DNA of 50,362 nt from Orenia metallireducens. GTDB taxonomy: Bacteria > Bacillota > Halanaerobiia > Halobacteroidales > Halobacteroidaceae. The position numbers and the translations under genes are program-made. The notes beneath the pieces are model-generated. The model had not been told where the DNA came from and searched no databases. It was given only the letters and a program-made list of their open reading frames with translations. The stretch is from the NCBI RefSeq assembly GCF_001693735.1, contig NZ_LWDV01000010.1:1-50362 (forward strand), in the 5' to 3' direction. Each line of letters begins with the position of its first letter. Position 1 is the first letter of the stretch. Shown here one piece after another: positions 2,679-42,053 of the stretch.

Positions 2679-3137
2679 TTATATATGATACATGTACCCA
2701 TGCCTATTACCTTTTTGTTGAGCATTAATCGCTTCTTGTCTCAAATCTTCTAAAGTAATTGAATCAAGCACTTCATCAATACTATCCTTTACCTTCTTCC
2801 ATATCATCTTTACAACACAGTCAGGGCTATTTCCACATTCATCCTTTAGTTCATCAGAAACACAGTCAGCAGGAGCAATTGGACCTTCTAAAGACCTAAT
2901 AATATCTCCAATAGTTATCTCTTGAGGGTCTTTAGCCAATAAATAACCTCCATGTGCTCCGCGAACACTATTTACTATACCGGCTTTTCTTAAAACAGCA
3001 ATCAACTGTTCTAAATAATGTTCAGATATATCCTGCCTTTCTGCAATACTCCTTAAAGGAATAGGACCATCACCTTGATGTAAGACCAAATCAAACATAG
3101 CTCTTACTCCATAGCGCCCCTTTGTAGATAGTTTCAT
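2679..3137 (-). CDS. iscR: Rrf2/IscR-family transcriptional regulator
   Basis: A 152-residue regulator with an N-terminal winged helix (MKLSTKGRYGVRAMFDLVLH and the wing GAHGGYLLAKDP) typical of Rrf2 proteins. Three cysteines, Cys92, Cys101 and Cys107, are in the region that ligates a [2Fe-2S] cluster in IscR, though spaced 8 and 5 residues apart rather than 5 and 5. As first gene before nifS and nifU, it very probably senses Fe-S status and controls its own operon. A good sigma-A promoter with imperfect dyad sequences lies directly upstream. Equivalence to E. coli IscR is likely but the altered spacing leaves room for another Rrf2 subgroup, so the symbol is tentative. Confidence 0.85.
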   Translation of the reverse strand: MKLSTKGRYGVRAMFDLVLHQGDGPIPLRSIAERQDISEHYLEQLIAVLRKAGIVNSVRGAHGGYLLAKDPQEITIGDIIRSLEGPIAPADCVSDELKDECGNSPDCVVKMIWKKVKDSIDEVLDSITLEDLRQEAINAQQKGNRHGYMYHI

Positions 3138-3350: not shown

Positions 3351-3951
3351 TTAAACACTAACCTCCTCCTGCTTCCTAGAGAAAAGATTCATTAACCTTA
3401 AAGAAAATCCCACAATAGGACCTATAATAAAAGCGCTTAAAATAGTACCAATACCTACAGGACCCCCTAATAAGTATCCAATAATTAAGATAAAGACTTC
3501 AATACTAGTCCTAATCCAACTAATATCAACATTTAACTTCTTATCCAATGCTACCATCAAACTATCTCTAGGACCAGTTCCACATTGAGCAGAGATGTAA
3601 ACTCCAACACCAAAGCCAAATACCATTAGTCCCAAGAATAAGTAGATATATCTAAAGATTAAACTAGCAGGATTAGGTAATAACAACATCACTATATCTA
3701 TTATCAAACCAATCACTACTATGTTAATTACTGTTCCCGAGGTTGGTTTAATTCTAGCCATCAAGAAGCTGAGTATTATAATTACAAAACCAGTAATTTG
3801 GCTGGCCCAACCTACAGTTATATTAAATCAAACCGATATGAAATACATTCCACGGTGACACCCCTAAGTCGGCCTTAATAGTAAATACTATACCAATACT
3901 CACAATAACTAAGCCCAGTATAAATTGCAGCCAAGCTTTCATTGATTTCAT
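3351..3951 (-). pseudogene. YczE/YitT-type membrane protein gene, frameshifted
   Basis: Translation from the ATG at 3951 gives a typical N-terminus, MKSMKAWLQFILGLVIVSIG then TIKADLGVSPWNVFHIGL, and then hits TAA near 3825. In the next frame the protein continues without a gap: NITVGWASQITGFVIIILS, then MARIKPTSGT and the rest (GPRDSLMVALDKKLNVD, GGPVGIGTILSAFIIGPIVG). One extra base around 3824-3832 explains everything. The intact product would be a 4-5 segment membrane protein of about 200 residues; the family includes regulators and transporters of unclear substrate. The start overlaps the yigZ stop as TAATG, so the two were translationally coupled. The downstream piece alone (from 3764) could be made from an internal Met but lacks the first two membrane segments. 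A sequencing error is possible. Confidence 0.8.
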
Positions 3952-4577
3952 TATCTAAACTTCTCTCCTTTTTCTTCAAAGCTAGCTTCTCCTCTAGTAG
4001 CATCGGTTATTCTCTTCTTAAAAGCATCTATATAACTTGGTTTCATAACAGCTATTATCTCAACTCCATCATTCATATAATTGATAGTTTCAATCTCTCC
4101 AGCATGACCTTCTAAATCATTAATAACCTCACCCATCCTATCATAAGAGACTGAAATCCCCAACTCTATGTACCTTATCTTCTCTATAATCCCAGCTTCT
4201 CGAATAGCCTCCCTTGCTGAACCACCATAAGCCCTAATCAATCCTCCTACACCATGCTTTACTCCACCAAAGTAACGGGTAACTACTAATGCAATATTAG
4301 TAACCTCTTCCCCTTCAATTGCTTGCAAGGCAGGAGGACCTGAAGAGCCAGCAGGTTCTCCATCATCACTACACCTCTTAGTTGCCCTATCTTCTATCCC
4401 AACTTTGAAAGCATAAACATTATGCCTAGCATCAGCAAACTCTTCATTAATCTCTTCAATAAACTCTTCTGCCTCTTTTACAGTATTAACATTCTTAACT
4501 GAGGTAATAAACTTACATTTCTTTATTTTAGCTTCTATTCTAAGGTTTCTTTTAATAGTCTTGTAGCTATCTGACAT
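3951..4577 (-). CDS. yigZ: YigZ/IMPACT family protein
   Basis: A 208-residue protein of the UPF0029/IMPACT family. The N-terminal domain has the family signature: RHNVYAFKVG, then the stretch around DDGEPAGSSGPPALQAI and VVTRYFGGVKHGVGGLIRAYG. The C-terminal ferredoxin-like half corresponds to DUF1949 and may bind nucleic acid. The exact function in bacteria is unsettled; eukaryotic IMPACT modulates the translation stress kinase GCN2. I chose the Met at 4577 (MSDSYKTIKR) because AAAGGAAG lies 7 nt upstream; an in-frame Met 6 codons earlier has no such site. The stop codon overlaps the start of the broken YczE-type gene. Confidence 0.88.
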   Translation of the reverse strand: MSDSYKTIKRNLRIEAKIKKCKFITSVKNVNTVKEAEEFIEEINEEFADARHNVYAFKVGIEDRATKRCSDDGEPAGSSGPPALQAIEGEEVTNIALVVTRYFGGVKHGVGGLIRAYGGSAREAIREAGIIEKIRYIELGISVSYDRMGEVINDLEGHAGEIETINYMNDGVEIIAVMKPSYIDAFKKRITDATRGEASFEEKGEKFR

Positions 4578-4646
4578 ATTACCGCTTCCTTTCAACCTCT
4601 TTTAAACATTATACCTATTTTAAATTTTAGTAGCAAGAGTTATTGG

Positions 4647-5957
4647 TTAATCTAAATTTTCTAAAAATTCTTTTATCTTCTTCTCATAACCATTTGTTGT
4701 TGGCTTATAAAATTTATTATCCAACAATTCATCAGGTAAATACTGTTGTTTTATATAATTGCCAGGATAAGAATGGGGATATTTATAGCCTTTCCCATGC
4801 CCTAAATCCTTAGCCCCACCATAATGGGCATCCTTTAAATGTGCTGGTACCCCTGAAGTAGATTCTGATTTAACTAATGCTAAGGCTTCATCAATAGCCA
4901 TAACTGCTGTATTACTCTTAGGGGCAGTCGCTATATATAAAGCTGCCTGAGCTAAAGGTATTCTAGCCTCTGGCATACCTACATACTCTAAAGCCTGAGC
5001 TGCTGAAACTGCTACCATCAAGGCATGGGGATTAGCATTTCCAACATCTTCAGCTGCATGAACAATCATTCTGCGAGCAATAAATCTTGGGTCTTCTCCT
5101 GCCTCAATCATCTGAGCCAACCAATAGATTGCAGCATTAGGATCAGAGCCTCGTAAGCTCTTAACAAAGGCTGAAGTAATATCATAATGATTATCACCAG
5201 ACTTGTCATATCTAATTGCTTTCTGTTGAATACTCTCTTCTGCTACTTTTAAATTTATCCTTCTAACCCCATTATCTTCAGGAGTAGTTAACACAGCTAA
5301 CTCTAAAGCATTTAAAGCCCTCCGAGCATCTCCATTTGCAACCATTGCCAAATGATTTAAAGCCTCTTCACTTATTTTAACTTCATATCCCCCCAACCCC
5401 CGTTCCTTATCTTCTAATGCCCTAGTTAAAACTTTAATCAAATCTTCTTTATCTAACTCCTTTAACTTAAATATTCTAGAGCGAGATATCAGTGGTGAAT
5501 TGACCTCGAAATAAGGATTCTCCGTTGTTGCACCTATTAAGATAACAGTCCCATCTTCAACTGCTGGTAATAAAGCATCCTGTTGACTCTTATTAAAGCG
5601 GTGTATCTCATCAATAAAGAGTACTGTTCTCTTATTATACATTCCCCTTCGCCCTTCAGCCCGCTTAATCACCTCTCGCAAATCTTTTACTCCAGAAGTA
5701 ACTGCATTTAACTTCTCAAATTCTGCCTTGGTACTATTGGCAATAATCTGGGCTAAGGTTGTCTTTCCTGTCCCTGGTGGTCCATAAAAGATAGCCGATT
5801 GCAATCGATCAACTTCAATTGCCCTTCTTAATAGCTTCCCTTCTCCTATAATATCCTCTTGTCCAAGAAATTCATCTAAAGTACGTGGCCTCATTCTAAC
5901 TGCTAATGGCTTATCTTGACCATTTTCTTGATAGTTCTGACTAAATAAATCCATCAT
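4647..5957 (-). CDS. rarA: replication-associated recombination protein RarA (MgsA) AAA+ ATPase
   Basis: A 436-residue clamp-loader-like AAA+ ATPase acting at stalled replication forks and DNA gaps. Motifs in order: PLAVRMRPRTLDEFLGQE at the N-terminus, Walker A GPPGTGKTTLAQ near residue 60, Walker B LFIDEIHRFNKSQQDALLP, sensor 1 GATTENPYFEVN, the arginine-finger region LISRSRIFKL, and the C-terminal tetramerisation part with AHYGGAKDLGHGKGYKYPH. Length is normal. Two Met codons are adjacent; the second (5954) is slightly better placed relative to the GGGGTG ribosome site. It stands upstream of yigZ on the same strand with a 70-nt gap. In many Firmicutes rarA lies near aspS and 6S RNA, as here. 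Confidence 0.95.
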   Translation of the reverse strand: MMDLFSQNYQENGQDKPLAVRMRPRTLDEFLGQEDIIGEGKLLRRAIEVDRLQSAIFYGPPGTGKTTLAQIIANSTKAEFEKLNAVTSGVKDLREVIKRAEGRRGMYNKRTVLFIDEIHRFNKSQQDALLPAVEDGTVILIGATTENPYFEVNSPLISRSRIFKLKELDKEDLIKVLTRALEDKERGLGGYEVKISEEALNHLAMVANGDARRALNALELAVLTTPEDNGVRRINLKVAEESIQQKAIRYDKSGDNHYDITSAFVKSLRGSDPNAAIYWLAQMIEAGEDPRFIARRMIVHAAEDVGNANPHALMVAVSAAQALEYVGMPEARIPLAQAALYIATAPKSNTAVMAIDEALALVKSESTSGVPAHLKDAHYGGAKDLGHGKGYKYPHSYPGNYIKQQYLPDELLDNKFYKPTTNGYEKKIKEFLENLD

Positions 5958-6048
5958 TACACCCCACTTTTAGATTTTATAAATATGCTTTTAGCCTGTT
6001 ATGCTAGCTTAATTACAATATATTTCGTATCGAATTATGGAGATAAAA

Positions 6049-6380
6049 CGATACTTTTTAACCCCAGTGTATAGTTGAGAGTTGATAGTTAAGTTCTTTA
6101 AAAGCGAAAAGAATTATTGTTTGAACGAAGCAAAAATTGAGATAAAATTTTAATTAGAGAATCTAATAATTGCTAATTCTTATTATTTTAATTGCGTAGT
6201 GAGTTTTAATTCTTTTCTAGACTGGGCTGGGTTTGCCACGGAGAGTTTTTTGTTCTATAAAAACTCGTAGGTTTGGTGACTTTTGCGGCGATGGCAAAAG
6301 TCACTCGGGAAAAAAGCTGATAAGCTTTCCCGAAAGATGTTTTAGTAATTTTATTAACTTTTAACAAGTAAAAGTGTCGC
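6049..6380. repeat. dispersed intergenic element, copy A (332 bp)
   Basis: Left end CGATACTTTTTAAC, right end AAGTAAAAGTGTCGC: imperfect inverted terminal repeats, with looser similarity extending about 25 nt outward (a GTATC motif). Inside it shares TTGAACGAAGCAA with copies B and C and TTAATTCTTTTCTAGACT (about 6205-6222) with the reverse complement of copy B. It also has two internal hairpins, GTGACTTTTGC/GCAAAAGTCAC (6276-6304) and TCGGGAAA/TTTCCCGA (6305-6333). No open frame. Looks like a non-autonomous, MITE-like element. Confidence 0.75.
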
Positions 6381-6443
6381 ATCATCCTTCTACTGTATCA
6401 CTATTTCTATTAGCACAAAAGTGATTTTATATTATTATATCAT

Positions 6444-6504: not shown

Positions 6505-7293
6505 TTACTCTGCAAGAAATCTCTCTAAAGCATAAGCTACTCCATCTTCTAAGTTAGTCTTAGTAACAAAGTCTGCCTTCTCTTTTACCCCTTCAGGAGA
6601 GTTAGCCATTGCTATAGACAGCCCTGCTATCTCAAACATAGCCACATCATTGAAGTTATTACCAATAGCAATAACCTCTTCTTTCTCTATATTCATTCTA
6701 TTCATCATGTATTTTAAAGCATTTCCTTTAGACACCTCTAGATTCATTACCTCAACATATTCTTCATCAGATTGAGTAATGTACAGTTTATCCTCATACC
6801 TTTCAGCTAATAAAGCAAAAAGTTCTAACATCTTTTTAGGTTCACCAGAGAATAGAATTTTTGTCGGCTCTTCTCTTAGCTGATGCTTTTCTTCAATAAT
6901 AGCCGTTATACCTTCTAAGTCATTATGTACTTCAGCTATTGACTTCTGATTGGTAATTACCTTATCTCCAAAGTATAAGCTCATCCCATAAGAGTTATTA
7001 TAACCATACTCTAGTATCTCTTCAGCTAATTCCAAAGGAATCTGCTTATTATGGTAAATATTCTTAGTTAAAGGACACTTGACTATTGAACCATTGGATG
7101 TAACCAAAGGTAAATATACCTCTAATTCCTTAGTATAAGGGTACAAAGATTGATAAGGTCTGCCGCTAGCCAAAATAAAATTGACACCTTGATTAGCAAA
7201 CTTATTAATTGCCTCTCTATTCTTATCAGAAACCTTATGATCATCATTAAGTAAGGTTCCATCCATATCTACAGCTACTAACTTATATCTCAT
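6505..7293 (-). CDS. Cof-type HAD hydrolase (sugar or cofactor phosphatase)
   Basis: A 262-residue haloacid-dehalogenase phosphatase of the Cof/YidA (IIB cap) type. Motif I is DMDGTLLND with the nucleophile and acid-base aspartates near the N-terminus; motif II is the serine of LASGRPYQS; motif III the lysine of VSKGNALKYM; motif IV reads AIGNNFNDVAMF. In most relatives motif IV begins GDNxND, so the first Mg-coordinating aspartate is Asn here while the second Asp remains. Activity is likely but could be altered. Substrates of this family are promiscuous sugar phosphates or FMN. It is a single-gene unit with its own terminator. Confidence 0.88.
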   Translation of the reverse strand: MRYKLVAVDMDGTLLNDDHKVSDKNREAINKFANQGVNFILASGRPYQSLYPYTKELEVYLPLVTSNGSIVKCPLTKNIYHNKQIPLELAEEILEYGYNNSYGMSLYFGDKVITNQKSIAEVHNDLEGITAIIEEKHQLREEPTKILFSGEPKKMLELFALLAERYEDKLYITQSDEEYVEVMNLEVSKGNALKYMMNRMNIEKEEVIAIGNNFNDVAMFEIAGLSIAMANSPEGVKEKADFVTKTNLEDGVAYALERFLAE

Positions 7294-7568: not shown

Positions 7569-8147
7569 TTAATCATTACATATAATCTCTCTTATATTAC
7601 TTAGTATCTTATTCATTTTAATATCATATTCATCAACTACCACCTGCTCGATAATTTGAAAATCAAAACAGATAGCTACTCTATTAATAGTTAAGTCTTG
7701 AGATAATAATCTATCATAATATCCTCCTCCATATCCCAAACGATTCCCATCCTTATCAAAAGCAAGTCCTGGACAGATAACCAAATTAACCTCAGGAAAA
7801 TTTACTAATCTCCTGTATTCTTTCTTAGGCTCTAAGATTCCATAACTACCTCTGATCAATTCTCTATCATAATCCTTCAATTCTGATAATTCAAGCTTAT
7901 TCTCCTTTAAATTAGTAATTGGAACAACTACTCTCTTCCCTAGTTTAAGAGCCTCTTTAATCATTGCTTCAGTTTTGACTTCATTCTTAAAGGATATAAA
8001 GAACATTATCGTTTTAGCAGCTTTGAACTCTGCTAAATTAAATAGTTTAACTTTAATTTTATTACTTTTATCTATTATATCTTCTCGATTAAGTTGACTT
8101 CTTAAATTTAACATCTCTTGTCGCTGCTTTTTTTTGGTTTTTTTCAT
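7569..8147 (-). CDS. 5-formyltetrahydrofolate cyclo-ligase
   Basis: A 192-residue ATP-dependent enzyme that turns 5-formyl-THF into 5,10-methenyl-THF, returning a stored and inhibitory folate to one-carbon metabolism. The basic N-terminus (KKTKKKQRQEMLNLR) is usual, and the C-terminal signature is complete: PGLAFDKDGNRLGYGGGYYD, the ATP/Mg and folate-binding loop. Length is normal. It is the next gene downstream of the 6S RNA on the same strand, as ygfA follows ssrS in E. coli, but a repeat element (copy B) now lies between them. It corresponds to the ygfA/yqgN/fau family. Confidence 0.93.
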   Translation of the reverse strand: MKKTKKKQRQEMLNLRSQLNREDIIDKSNKIKVKLFNLAEFKAAKTIMFFISFKNEVKTEAMIKEALKLGKRVVVPITNLKENKLELSELKDYDRELIRGSYGILEPKKEYRRLVNFPEVNLVICPGLAFDKDGNRLGYGGGYYDRLLSQDLTINRVAICFDFQIIEQVVVDEYDIKMNKILSNIREIICND

Positions 8148-8265
8148 TGATTAGCATCCTCTACTTTTTAACCTTTATTATAAGGGAAGTGATAGTTAAT
8201 TGCAAGAATAATGGGCAACTTCTAATTAAAGATCAATATAGATAATGATGGTTAATAAGGGTATT

Positions 8266-8758
8266 GCGATACTTTTACTTTTTGAAAAGCAGACAAAATC
8301 TTAGGTTGTAGCCCAAGACTACTTTCTACAGGCGCGCCTAAGGGCGCCTTACTTTTGGCATTGCCCCAAAAGCAAGCAAACCTACGGGTTCATTCTTAAA
8401 TTTATTATGAAAGGTTTTTAGTAAAAACCTGTAGAGAACCCTTCGTGATAAACCTAGTCTAGAAAAGAATTAACCTACAGGTTAAAGGGTAAACCCTTCG
8501 TAGTTCCCCAACTAAGACTCTTCGTGGCAGAGCCTACTCACTCCGCAACCAATATCTATTGAGGTTAAAAAATATAGAAATTCTACTTCAAAGATTCCAT
8601 TGTTATTGTTTTTAAGAGTACTTGCTTCGTTCAAACATAAAGAAAACTTAGTGAAGTAAGTGTTTTTCTTACTAAACTTTAGTTGAACTTATCCTTTAGG
8701 GCTAATTCTTTTCGCCTTTAAAGACATGAACACTCTAGGTTGATATAAAAAGTATCAC
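8266..8758. repeat. dispersed intergenic element, copy B (493 bp)
   Basis: Left end GCGATACTTTTACTTTTTG, right end ATATAAAAAGTATCAC, imperfect inverted repeats of the same family as copies A, C and D. Its reverse complement matches copy C well over about 90 nt (8545-8636 against 37925-38019), including TTGAACGAAGCAA and AGATATTGGTTGC, and also near the end (AACCTAAGATTTT followed by AAAAAGTAAAAG). It matches copy A at TTAATTCTTTTCTAGACT (8456-8473 reversed). Longest copy, GC-richer than its surroundings in places (GGCGCGCCTAAGGGCGCC). It separates 6S RNA from the cyclo-ligase gene. Confidence 0.75.
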
Positions 8759-8850
8759 ATTATCTCTCTACTGTATCATCTATCTACTAAAACAAAGTAT
8801 AGTATATATTGCAAAGTCAACCTCTTTATCCTATTACAAAAAATAAAAAA

Positions 8851-8870
8851 ATCCAGCATTTCAGCTAGAT
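8851..8870 (-). terminator. intrinsic terminator of 6S RNA
   Basis: Minus strand: ATCTAGC-TGAAAT-GCTGGAT, a 7-bp stem with one G-T pair, followed by TTTTTTTATTTTTTG. It begins 6 nt beyond the closing stem of the 6S RNA. Confidence 0.75.
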
Positions 8871-8876
8871 AAAAAT

Positions 8877-9053
8877 TGTCCCGCAGTGCCGTACTAGATT
8901 TTGTATTTTGCTCTTAGCTTCAAAGTGGGTGCCCTCCCATCTGCTTTATACTTCCTCTCTAGTTGGAGGCTTGTACGCCACAAATGAAGTCCAGGCTCCC
9001 TTATATTATGGTGTTGGGCAAAATATTAATCCGATCTCGAACACCGCAGGACA
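8877..9053 (-). ncRNA. ssrS: 6S RNA
   Basis: On the minus strand the transcript begins TGTCCTGCGGTGTTCG and ends GTACGGCACTGCGGGACA. The two ends pair (TGTCCTGC with GCGGGACA) as the closing stem of 6S RNA, and the nearby GGTGTTCG and GGCAC sequences are typical of firmicute 6S RNAs. Length is about 177 nt, within the usual 180-200. The middle can form the long imperfect rod interrupted by the promoter-mimicking bubble. 6S RNA binds the sigma-A RNA polymerase holoenzyme and down-regulates transcription in stationary phase. A terminator follows. Position between aspS and the rarA side is like Bacillus bsrA. Exact ends are estimates. Confidence 0.88.
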
Positions 9054-9207
9054 TTTATATTAAGTTTTTTTATGTCTTCCCTTAACTCTATTAAGATAAT
9101 AACATACTTTGATATTTATCGCAAGTGAAATTGCTTAATAATTTATGGAAAATTAATCAATTATCTAGTAATTATTACCAGTAGGGTTGCTTACAGATAG
9201 ATATAAT

Positions 9208-10989
9208 TTAGTCTATCTCTATCTCTTCTTCTACCTCTATACCTAGCTCTTCTAATTGAGCTTCTGCTACCATTGCTGGTGCTTCTGTTAATAGACAAGT
9301 AGCTCTTTGAGTTTTTGGAAATGGAATTACGTCACGAATAGTCTCTAGTCCACCAAGTAACATTACAAGTCTATCAAGCCCAAAAGCAATTCCTCCATGT
9401 GGTGGAGCACCATATTGGAAGGCTTCTAATAAGAAACCAAACTTCTCTTCAATCTCCTCTTCATCCATATTTAATAAATTGAAGATTTTAGCCTGTAATT
9501 GACTATTATTGATTCTGATACTTCCTCCCCCAATCTCAATACCATTCAATACCAAATCATAAGCTTGAGAAAGAACCTTGCCAGCGTTCTCCTTATCTAA
9601 TAAATCGATATCCTCTTCTCTAGGCATTGTAAATGGATGATGTAATGCAACATACCTCTTAGCATCTTCATCCCACTCTAATAATGGGAAATCAGTTATC
9701 CAAACAAATTTAAATTCATCTTGGTCAATTAGATCTAACTCTTTTCCAATCTTCAATCTTAAGTTACCTAAAGAAGCTGCTACAACCTTTGGAGTATCAG
9801 CTACAAATAATAATAAGTCTCCTGTCTCAGCTCCCATAGCATCTAACATATTATTTAATTCTTCTTCAGCTAAAAACTTAGCTATTGGAGACTGTACTCC
9901 ATCCTCTTTAATCTTCATCCAAGCAAGACCTTTAGCACCATAGATTCCAGCAAAGTCAGTCAACTCATCGATATCCTTGCGGGAGAAATCTACTCCACCT
10001 TTGACATTGATACCTTTAACCTGTCCACCTTTAGCAATGGTACCACTGAATACTTTAAACTCTGCATCTTTAACTACCTCAGATACATCGATCAACTCTA
10101 AACCAAAGCGGATATCTGGTCTATCACTTCCAAAGCGTTCCATAGCTTCATGATAGCTCATATGTGGAAATTCCGTTGGAGCTTCAAATCCAGCAACTTT
10201 AAATATCTCTTGGATCATACCTTCAATTAAATTCATAATCTCTTCTTGGTTCATAAATGACATTTCCATATCAATCTGAGTAAACTCTGGTTGACGGTCC
10301 GCCCTTAAATCTTCATCTCTAAAGCAACGAACTATTTGATAGTATCTCTCTAAGCCTGCTACCATCAATAACTGCTTAAATAACTGTGGTGATTGAGGTA
10401 GAGCAAAGAATTGCCCTTTGTTGACACGACTTGGTACCAAGAAATCTCTTGCCCCCTCTGGAGTACTCTTAGTCAACATCGGTGTCTCAATATCTAAGAA
10501 GTCCTTGTTATCTAGATAATTTCTAACAGCTTGCTTAACCTTATGGCGCAAGATAATATTATCTTGCATCGGCTTTCTTCTTAAGTCCAGATACCTATAC
10601 TTTAATCGCATCTCTTCACTGGAGTTGATATCATCTTCAACTTGAATTGGAGGAGTTTGAGCCTTATCTAAGATATGTAATTTTTCAGCATAAATCTCAA
10701 CTGCTCCAGTTGCTAAATCTTCATTAATCATCCCTTCAGGTCTAGCAATAACCTCACCAGTGATGGCTATAACAAACTCTTTTCTTAGTTCATCTGCAAC
10801 CTCAAACATCTCTTTAGATACTTCTGGACTAAATACTACCTGTACTAATCCGAATCTATCCCTTAAATCTATAAAGATTACTCCTCCATGGTCTCTTCTA
10901 CGATTAACCCAACCCATTAGAGTTATCTTCTCTCCTACATGCTCTCTTCTCACATCGCCACAATAGCAGCTTCTCTTTAATCCTTTCAT
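9208..10989 (-). CDS. aspS: aspartyl-tRNA synthetase
   Basis: A 593-residue class IIb synthetase that charges tRNA-Asp (and perhaps tRNA-Asn, if the organism uses the amidotransferase route). The N-terminal OB-fold binds the anticodon (ITLMGWVNRRRDHGGVIFID). Motif 2 is the FRDEDLRADRQPEFTQIDME loop. A bacterial GAD insertion lies around residues 290-410 (AGIYGAKGLAWMKI), and motif 3 is GIAFGLDRLVMLLGG. The insertion and length make it the bacterial type; whether it is discriminating cannot be decided here. Directly downstream of hisS with an 18-nt gap, the standard hisS-aspS pair of Firmicutes. Confidence 0.97.
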   Translation of the reverse strand: MKGLKRSCYCGDVRREHVGEKITLMGWVNRRRDHGGVIFIDLRDRFGLVQVVFSPEVSKEMFEVADELRKEFVIAITGEVIARPEGMINEDLATGAVEIYAEKLHILDKAQTPPIQVEDDINSSEEMRLKYRYLDLRRKPMQDNIILRHKVKQAVRNYLDNKDFLDIETPMLTKSTPEGARDFLVPSRVNKGQFFALPQSPQLFKQLLMVAGLERYYQIVRCFRDEDLRADRQPEFTQIDMEMSFMNQEEIMNLIEGMIQEIFKVAGFEAPTEFPHMSYHEAMERFGSDRPDIRFGLELIDVSEVVKDAEFKVFSGTIAKGGQVKGINVKGGVDFSRKDIDELTDFAGIYGAKGLAWMKIKEDGVQSPIAKFLAEEELNNMLDAMGAETGDLLLFVADTPKVVAASLGNLRLKIGKELDLIDQDEFKFVWITDFPLLEWDEDAKRYVALHHPFTMPREEDIDLLDKENAGKVLSQAYDLVLNGIEIGGGSIRINNSQLQAKIFNLLNMDEEEIEEKFGFLLEAFQYGAPPHGGIAFGLDRLVMLLGGLETIRDVIPFPKTQRATCLLTEAPAMVAEAQLEELGIEVEEEIEID

Positions 10990-11007: not shown

Positions 11008-12270
11008 TTAGTCTATACGCTTTGTCATCTCTTCAACTAGATTTTCTAATTTAATTTCTACTTGTTCACCAGATTTCATATTTTTAATAGTAGCTACTCC
11101 GTTATCCAACTCATCTTCACCTAAGATAATACTATAATTAGCATTACTTCTATCAGCAGCCTTCATTTGAGATTTGACACTTCTACCTAAGTAATCCATC
11201 TCTACCTTCAAGTCAGCCTTACGCAGCTTAGCTAAATACTTAAAGGCTTCCTCTTCTGCCCTCTCACCAATAGTAGTAATAAATAAATCTATACTATCAT
11301 CTATTGGTAGCTCAATGCCTTGCTCTTCTATGGTTAACAAAATTCTCTCCATACCCATAGCAAATCCTATCCCCGGGATATCCTTGCCACCAATCTCTTC
11401 AGCTAATCCATCATAACGACCTCCACCAAAGATAGTATCTTGAGCACCCAATCCTTTATATATTACTTCAAAGGCTGTTTTAGTATAGTAGTCTAATCCT
11501 CTTACTAAATTAGCATCAAGGATATAATCGATCCCCAATAAGTCTAAGTGCTTCTTGACACTAGCAAAATGTGTTTCACACTCTTCACATAACTCTTCAT
11601 AAATCTTAGGTGCTTTTGCCATAAACTCTTTATCCCTATCTGCTTTACAATCTAAGATACGTAAAGGATTTCGTTTATAGCGATTTTGGCAATCAGAACA
11701 TAGCTCTTCAAGATATGGCTTAAAGTAATCCACCATTTTCTCTCTATATGCCTTCCGACATTCTGGACAGCCCACACTATTTAAATGTAACTCTAAATCC
11801 TTCAAACCTAACTCCTCTAATAAATGAATACCTAAAGAGATAATTTCAGCATCTATTGCTGGATTATCTGCCCCTAACACCTCTGCTCCTAATTGGTGAA
11901 ACTCTCTATAACGACCAGCTTGTGGTCTTTCATATCTGAACATCGAACCTATGTAAAAGTACTTAGTTGGTTGAGCTTGTCCATAAATCTTATTTTCTAA
12001 AAATGCCCTTACTACAGAAGCTGTTCCCTCTGGACGCAAAGTGATACTTCTACCACCTTTATCTTCAAAGGTGTACATCTCCTTTTCTACAATATCAGTA
12101 GTCTCTCCAATTCCTCGTTGAAACAATGCCGTCTCTTCAAAGATTGGTGTTCTAATCTCTTTATAGTTATAGCTGCTAAATATTTTCTTTGTTAAATTTT
12201 CTAGATACTGCCATTTGACTGTATCTTCAGGGAATATATCCTTAGTTCCCCTTGGGGCTGTAATACCCAT
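11008..12270 (-). CDS. hisS: histidyl-tRNA synthetase
   Basis: A 420-residue class IIa synthetase. Motifs: the N-terminal ITAPRGTKDIFPED, motif 2 MFRYERPQAGRYREFHQLG, the histidine-specific LVRGLDYYTKTAFEV, motif 3 GIGFAMGMERILL and a C-terminal anticodon-binding domain. A four-cysteine insertion (CPECRKAY...CSDCQNRY) is common in clostridial HisRS. I start it at 12270 because AGGAGGGATAAG lies immediately upstream; an upstream in-frame Met would add 11 residues inside the leader. It is followed closely by aspS and preceded by the parvulin-TPR gene, with a 12-13 bp perfect hairpin in the gap. Confidence 0.96.
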   Translation of the reverse strand: MGITAPRGTKDIFPEDTVKWQYLENLTKKIFSSYNYKEIRTPIFEETALFQRGIGETTDIVEKEMYTFEDKGGRSITLRPEGTASVVRAFLENKIYGQAQPTKYFYIGSMFRYERPQAGRYREFHQLGAEVLGADNPAIDAEIISLGIHLLEELGLKDLELHLNSVGCPECRKAYREKMVDYFKPYLEELCSDCQNRYKRNPLRILDCKADRDKEFMAKAPKIYEELCEECETHFASVKKHLDLLGIDYILDANLVRGLDYYTKTAFEVIYKGLGAQDTIFGGGRYDGLAEEIGGKDIPGIGFAMGMERILLTIEEQGIELPIDDSIDLFITTIGERAEEEAFKYLAKLRKADLKVEMDYLGRSVKSQMKAADRSNANYSIILGEDELDNGVATIKNMKSGEQVEIKLENLVEEMTKRID

Positions 12271-12314
12271 CTTATCCCTCCTAAAATATTGAAAATAGTA
12301 CATAAAATTTAGTA

Positions 12315-41677: not shown

Positions 41678-41837
41678 TAACCGATTATGGTAATTTATTC
41701 ATTTTTCACAAGAGACACTTCGATATTTAGCTATGAATAAGAGGGTAGCTTGTTATAATAGGTATTGACTCTAAAATTATCAGGAATAATTTATGATTTT
41801 AGAGTTAAATTTAAATATGACGTTATAGATAGATAGT

Positions 41838-41962
41838 GCGACACTTTTTACTTCAGGGTACAGGGTACAGTTGATATTAAAGTCAAGTTCAAAGTCTCAC
41901 ACCTCACCCTAACCCTCTCCTATTCTTAGGAGAGGGTTAGGGTGAGGTGTGAAAAGTGTCGC
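41838..41962. repeat. dispersed intergenic element, copy D (125 bp), with 25-bp hairpin
   Basis: Ends GCGACACTTTTTAC and GAAAAGTGTCGC match copies A-C. The interior is different: a perfect 25-bp inverted repeat (41898-41922 and 41927-41951, 4-nt loop) built on TCACCCTAACCCTCTCC, a sequence like palindromic repeats widely found in bacteria. It is the shortest copy, perhaps an internal deletion or a hybrid. Confidence 0.72.
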
Positions 41963-42053
41963 AATATACCAATTAAGTTTAACTTTAAATTGATAGACCT
42001 ATATGCTATAATCATCTTGGTTTAGCAATAAAAATAACCTTTATTAAAAGGAG

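Follow-up and report, generated by a model that had tools for sequence, protein, structure and literature searches.

6S RNA is abundant in stationary phase in the species that have been studied, and 5-formyl-THF cyclo-ligase (MTHFS; the ygfA/fau/yqgN family) mobilises 5-formyl-THF, a storage form of folate. In E. coli K-12 the two genes are neighbours, in the order zapA-ssrS-fau, fau following ssrS after a gap of 75 nt, and the reason for their proximity has been an open question from that organism. A dicistronic ssrS-ygfA transcript that is processed to 6S RNA has been described in E. coli (PMC7641849, citing Kim and Lee 2004, Chae 2011), and the two genes are paired widely across Proteobacteria (PMC7641849). 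In lactic acid bacteria, 6S RNA lies by rarA and is likely monocistronic with a terminator (PMC8414754). A further paper states that ygfA adjoins 6S in some beta- or deltaproteobacteria or Firmicutes (PMC9130861, citing Barrick 2005, Wehner 2014); this statement very probably covers the arrangement described here, and the adjacency of 6S and MTHFS is itself already in the literature. Our literature search returned no mention of 6S RNA together with Halanaerobi-. What is new here is the depth of the pairing, its explanation by ordinary synteny and its architecture of two units.

We have analysed a stretch of 50,362 nucleotides from Orenia metallireducens (the window), in which a 6S RNA gene lies upstream of the gene for MTHFS with a repeat, element B, in the spacer. 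We consider it highly probable, from a comparison of sequences across the class to which the window belongs (Halanaerobiia), that the two genes form an inherited neighbourhood of two separate transcription units, and not a shared transcript that the repeat has broken. According to this proposal 6S would be transcribed from a SigA-type promoter of its own and would end at its own intrinsic terminator, MTHFS would start from a promoter located after that terminator, and the order hisS-aspS-6S-MTHFS-rarA-yigZ-cymR-iscS-nifU would have been kept since the class ancestor, 6S and MTHFS being neighbours because the ancestral block was kept. A MITE-like repeat would then have inserted downstream of the 6S terminator and upstream of the MTHFS promoter, leaving both intact. 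The features of the region are listed in Table 1.

Table 1. Genes, putative signals and the repeat around the 6S-MTHFS pair of the window.
Feature	Position	Strand	Basis and remarks
nifU	919-1335	minus	Name from similarity and order
iscS	1426-2592	minus	Name from similarity and order
cymR-like regulator gene	2679-3137	minus	Name from similarity and order
yigZ-like gene	3951-4595	minus	Name from similarity and order
rarA	4647-5957	minus	Downstream flank; name from similarity and position
Cof-type HAD hydrolase	6505-7293	minus	TIGR00099; inserted between MTHFS and rarA
5-formyl-THF cyclo-ligase (MTHFS; ygfA/fau/yqgN family)	7569-8147	minus	TIGR02727
Putative MTHFS promoter	8177-8205	minus	TTGCAA-17-TATAAT; consensus scan; gene side of element B
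Element B, multi-copy MITE-like repeat	about 8264-8760		Inverted ends, non-coding
Intrinsic terminator of 6S	8851-8870	minus	ATCTAGC-TGAAAT-GCTGGAT then T7; sequence scan
6S RNA (ssrS)	8874-9055	minus	RF00013, 103.4 bits; sole copy found in genome
Putative SigA-type promoter of 6S	9096-9124	minus	TTGCGA-17-TATTAT, TG before -10 box; consensus scan
aspS	9208-10989	minus	Upstream flank; TIGR00459
hisS	11008-12303	minus	Upstream flank; ORF, gene order

The identity of both genes is clear. The 6S RNA matches RF00013 over the full model (positions 1-187) at 103.4 bits, where the gathering score is 46.4, and MTHFS matches TIGR02727 over profile positions 1-180 of 182 at 164.4 bits, where the curated cut-off is 84.9. 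As the sequence-only reading had seen, 6S is the next gene upstream of the cyclo-ligase and on the same (minus) strand, with a gap of 726 nt. A class alignment of 18 6S sequences contains 46 pairs, of which 19 show compensatory changes, and this covariation supports the long hairpin of a 6S RNA, with its closing stem, large central bubble and terminal stem. The window's gene is, on solid grounds, a canonical 6S RNA, which would be expected to bind RNA polymerase like its homologues. No second copy was found in the source genome, either by an Rfam genome search or with a class-specific model that scores 174 bits at the locus itself. A TG-TATTAT-like box is found at the equivalent position upstream of 6S in relatives from family f1. 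The pair is embedded in a minus-strand run of hisS, aspS, 6S, MTHFS, HAD hydrolase, rarA, yigZ-like, cymR-like, iscS and nifU, in which the insertion of the HAD hydrolase gene between MTHFS and rarA is shared, by gene order, with part of family f1.

The sequence-only reading had allowed that the pairing might be old or might be a coincidence. MTHFS is present in 44 genomes of the class, 42 of which carry 6S as well. Every one of the 42, which come from nine families, has MTHFS immediately downstream of 6S and on the same strand, and the MTHFS profile match begins 71-738 nt from 6S (median 136 nt). Within the window's order, 6S was matched in 11 genomes and MTHFS is the next gene downstream in all 11. 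The pairing is thus older than is evident from the window alone, and coincidence confined to the source genome, which has its bare possibility as its sole recommendation, has a practically negligible probability against this distribution and is rejected. Moreover, the order mbl-PrsA-hisS-aspS-6S-MTHFS-rarA-yigZ-cymR-iscS-nifU is almost entirely kept across the class, and the gap between MTHFS and the downstream rarA is commonly 30-50 nt. Since the whole block is conserved, the adjacency of 6S and MTHFS is what ordinary synteny would lead one to expect, and the pair is part of an ordinary, deeply conserved neighbourhood.

Genes can stay adjacent, even as plain synteny, without sharing a transcript, and the signals between the two genes point to separate units. 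In each of the 42 class pairs a hairpin with a T-run begins 1-37 nt beyond the end of 6S (41 found by script and the last, in G092, by eye, its loop being above the script's limit), where a shuffled control gives an expectation of ~1.6 terminators over all 48 tested regions; the terminator that the sequence-only reading had assigned to the window's 6S, a hairpin with T7, is one of this set. Promoter-like boxes, which are consensus matches only, occur upstream of MTHFS in most class members, including TTGACA-18-TATGAT in four f2 genomes and a TTGCAA-17-TATAAT common to the window and its closest relative, G012. Some members (e.g., G137, G138, G145) have poor boxes, and in these MTHFS may depend on read-through. 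For the class as a whole, we infer that strong read-through from 6S into MTHFS is lacking.

Set beside the proteobacterial zapA-ssrS-ygfA(fau) locus, with its short gap (75 nt in E. coli), the window has the same placement of 6S directly upstream of the cyclo-ligase on the same strand. However, the gene upstream of 6S is aspS and not zapA, and whereas the E. coli transcript is dicistronic and processed, an intrinsic terminator is predicted after 6S in all class members. The likeness is closer to the firmicute 6S-1 locus, where, as in the window, 6S lies between aspS and the rarA(-cymR-iscS) side, and which in lactic acid bacteria is reported as likely monocistronic with a downstream terminator (PMC8414754). 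The difference is that the window has MTHFS between 6S and rarA, whereas other Bacillota usually have MTHFS elsewhere, or tcdA after 6S. Judged by its gene order and signals, the window's locus appears to work as a 6S-1 locus of the firmicute kind in which MTHFS happens to lie, and not as an ssrS-ygfA operon of the E. coli type; a connection with the proteobacterial arrangement is not shown.

The spacer repeat noted in the sequence-only reading (493 bp there) has inverted ends of ~13-19 nt (TTGCGATACTTTT/AAAAGTATCACAT) and a length of 493-497 bp, depending on how its ends are delimited; if it were removed, the two genes would be ~230 nt apart by our computation, near the ~240 nt originally estimated. 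Element B has no signs of coding, 57 places in the source genome match fragments of it and several further copies, of 129-525 bp, have ends of the same type, so that it is MITE-like in being short, non-coding, bounded by inverted ends and present in many copies. It had been suggested that this element broke an ancestral shared transcript of the E. coli kind, for which the dicistronic ssrS-ygfA transcript (PMC7641849) and the 75-nt gap in that organism offer a precedent. This is very improbable from the arrangement of signals. Element B sits between the 6S terminator (8870-8851) and the MTHFS promoter boxes (8205-8177), and its insertion therefore left both signals in place. Relatives free of the element have the same terminator, most of them with promoter-like boxes before MTHFS; in G011, of the same genus, the 6S-MTHFS gap is 138 nt, the 6S terminator being followed by MTHFS, and this supplies the element-free interval that the sequence-only reading had proposed for comparison. 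The corresponding gap of G012 also carries an element, with similar ends and a partly different interior. With terminators in all members and promoter boxes retained on the MTHFS side of element B, we reject a broken shared transcript on these sequence grounds and favour two units that were separate before the repeat arrived, the order of these events being our reconstruction.

A different explanation is that the two genes are coupled functionally, in that coordinated expression of 6S and MTHFS at entry into and exit from dormancy was selected, separately in Proteobacteria and in the class, acting through leaky termination or local effects. This is consistent with the pair being adjacent in two unrelated contexts, zapA-ssrS-fau of E. 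coli and aspS-6S-MTHFS of the window, and with the locus in G138-G140 and G167, where aspS was undetected upstream of 6S and 6S-MTHFS-rarA is nevertheless intact. It is also consistent with a motif scan of named genomes that yielded 69 MTHFS loci, of which five, all proteobacterial, have 6S adjacent; none of the 69 loci has 6S adjacent to MTHFS in another phylum. However, the whole block is conserved and the pair needs no special cause, a terminator always stands between 6S and MTHFS, and each gene has been lost while the other was kept. MTHFS was not found in f74, G143 and part of f78, where 6S is kept and mostly adjoins rarA, and conversely 6S was not found in G006 and G007 when the whole genomes were searched with the Rfam and class-specific models, while MTHFS stays by aspS. 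Given losses of 6S alone and of MTHFS alone, either gene can go without the other. Functional coupling is thus a possible reading, if a rather unlikely one, and is not needed to explain the pairing. It is likewise unlikely that selection established the link independently in the Proteobacteria and in the class, as a sign that RNA polymerase sequestration is truly coupled to the mobilisation of stored folate at the end of dormancy, and that this coupling has been kept despite separate promoters and terminators. Were the link functional, the class would be a second, independently built case for asking why 6S and the cyclo-ligase adjoin. The repeated meeting of 6S and MTHFS, in Proteobacteria and in the class, may reflect either selection or chance, and the genomes in which only one of the two genes was found (G006 and G007 for MTHFS, f74 for 6S) provide natural experiments that separate them.

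These lineages can be described further. G006 and G007 are sister genera by gene tree and belong to the window's family; 6S is missing at L076 7460-7720 in G006 and between aspS and MTHFS at L077 in G007. A diverged 6S that had been missed was considered for these genomes and rejected, the class-specific model having found none in either. The aspS-MTHFS space of G007 (L077) contains a reverse-transcriptase ORF that resembles a group II intron. In family f74 (L187, L188, L189, L204, L205) 6S lies ~40-80 nt from rarA with MTHFS not found, and the cyclo-ligase appears to have been lost in this lineage.

Outside the class the pairing is sparse. Of 119 genomes sampled across the phylum, 92 carry both 6S and MTHFS, and the two are within 1 kb of each other (<=1 kb) in only 10, namely the four class members in the sample and genomes of f23 (three), f24 (two) and f35 (one). 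Among 20 other Bacillota 6S loci that were sampled, 6S comes right after aspS in 18, many of these continuing with tcdA and rarA, and MTHFS was absent from the ~8 kb read around 6S. Relatives with 6S by aspS and the cyclo-ligase elsewhere, which the sequence-only reading had named as the observation that would count against the pairing, are therefore absent from the class but the rule in other Bacillota, and because MTHFS is usually elsewhere in the latter, firmicutes in general do not have the pairing. The three outlying families have the order 6S-(tcdA)-MTHFS, a tcdA-like gene standing between 6S and MTHFS in G075, G033, G115 and G085; in the window's order the search for tcdA gave only partial ThiF-like matches, none of them near 6S. 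One reading is that the ancestral order was aspS-6S-tcdA-MTHFS-rarA and that tcdA was lost in the class and part of f23, and direct adjacency of 6S and MTHFS may thus have come about through loss of tcdA. Independent arrivals of MTHFS are also possible because the gene tree is weak: in this MTHFS tree of 191 columns the class does not form one clade, although a tree constrained to make it one is not rejected (p-AU 0.41).

Acquisition of an ssrS-ygfA cassette from Proteobacteria by horizontal transfer was also considered and is unsupported; 6S lies at the usual Bacillota site by aspS, and the class MTHFS sequences group, in the same weak tree, among clostridial and not proteobacterial sequences.

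Families f24 and f35 lack a separate hairpin after 6S; by eye, the closing stem of 6S is followed by a T-run, and the two together could serve as a terminator. Similarly, L084, L085 and L087 have tcdA directly after 6S and no separate terminator hairpin, and transcription may be ended there by the 6S closing stem and T-run. In a genome of Spirochaetota (L220 2602-4401), rarA and MTHFS adjoin without 6S, and a rarA-MTHFS link therefore exists on its own. Within the window, several blocks at 6040-6410, between the HAD gene and rarA, match element B in inverted orientation, and the conserved block thus carries two such insertions. A further stretch of 129 bp at 41836-41964 has the inverted ends of element B (GTGCGACACTTTT ... 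AAAAGTGTCGCAA) and is therefore a short member of the same family.
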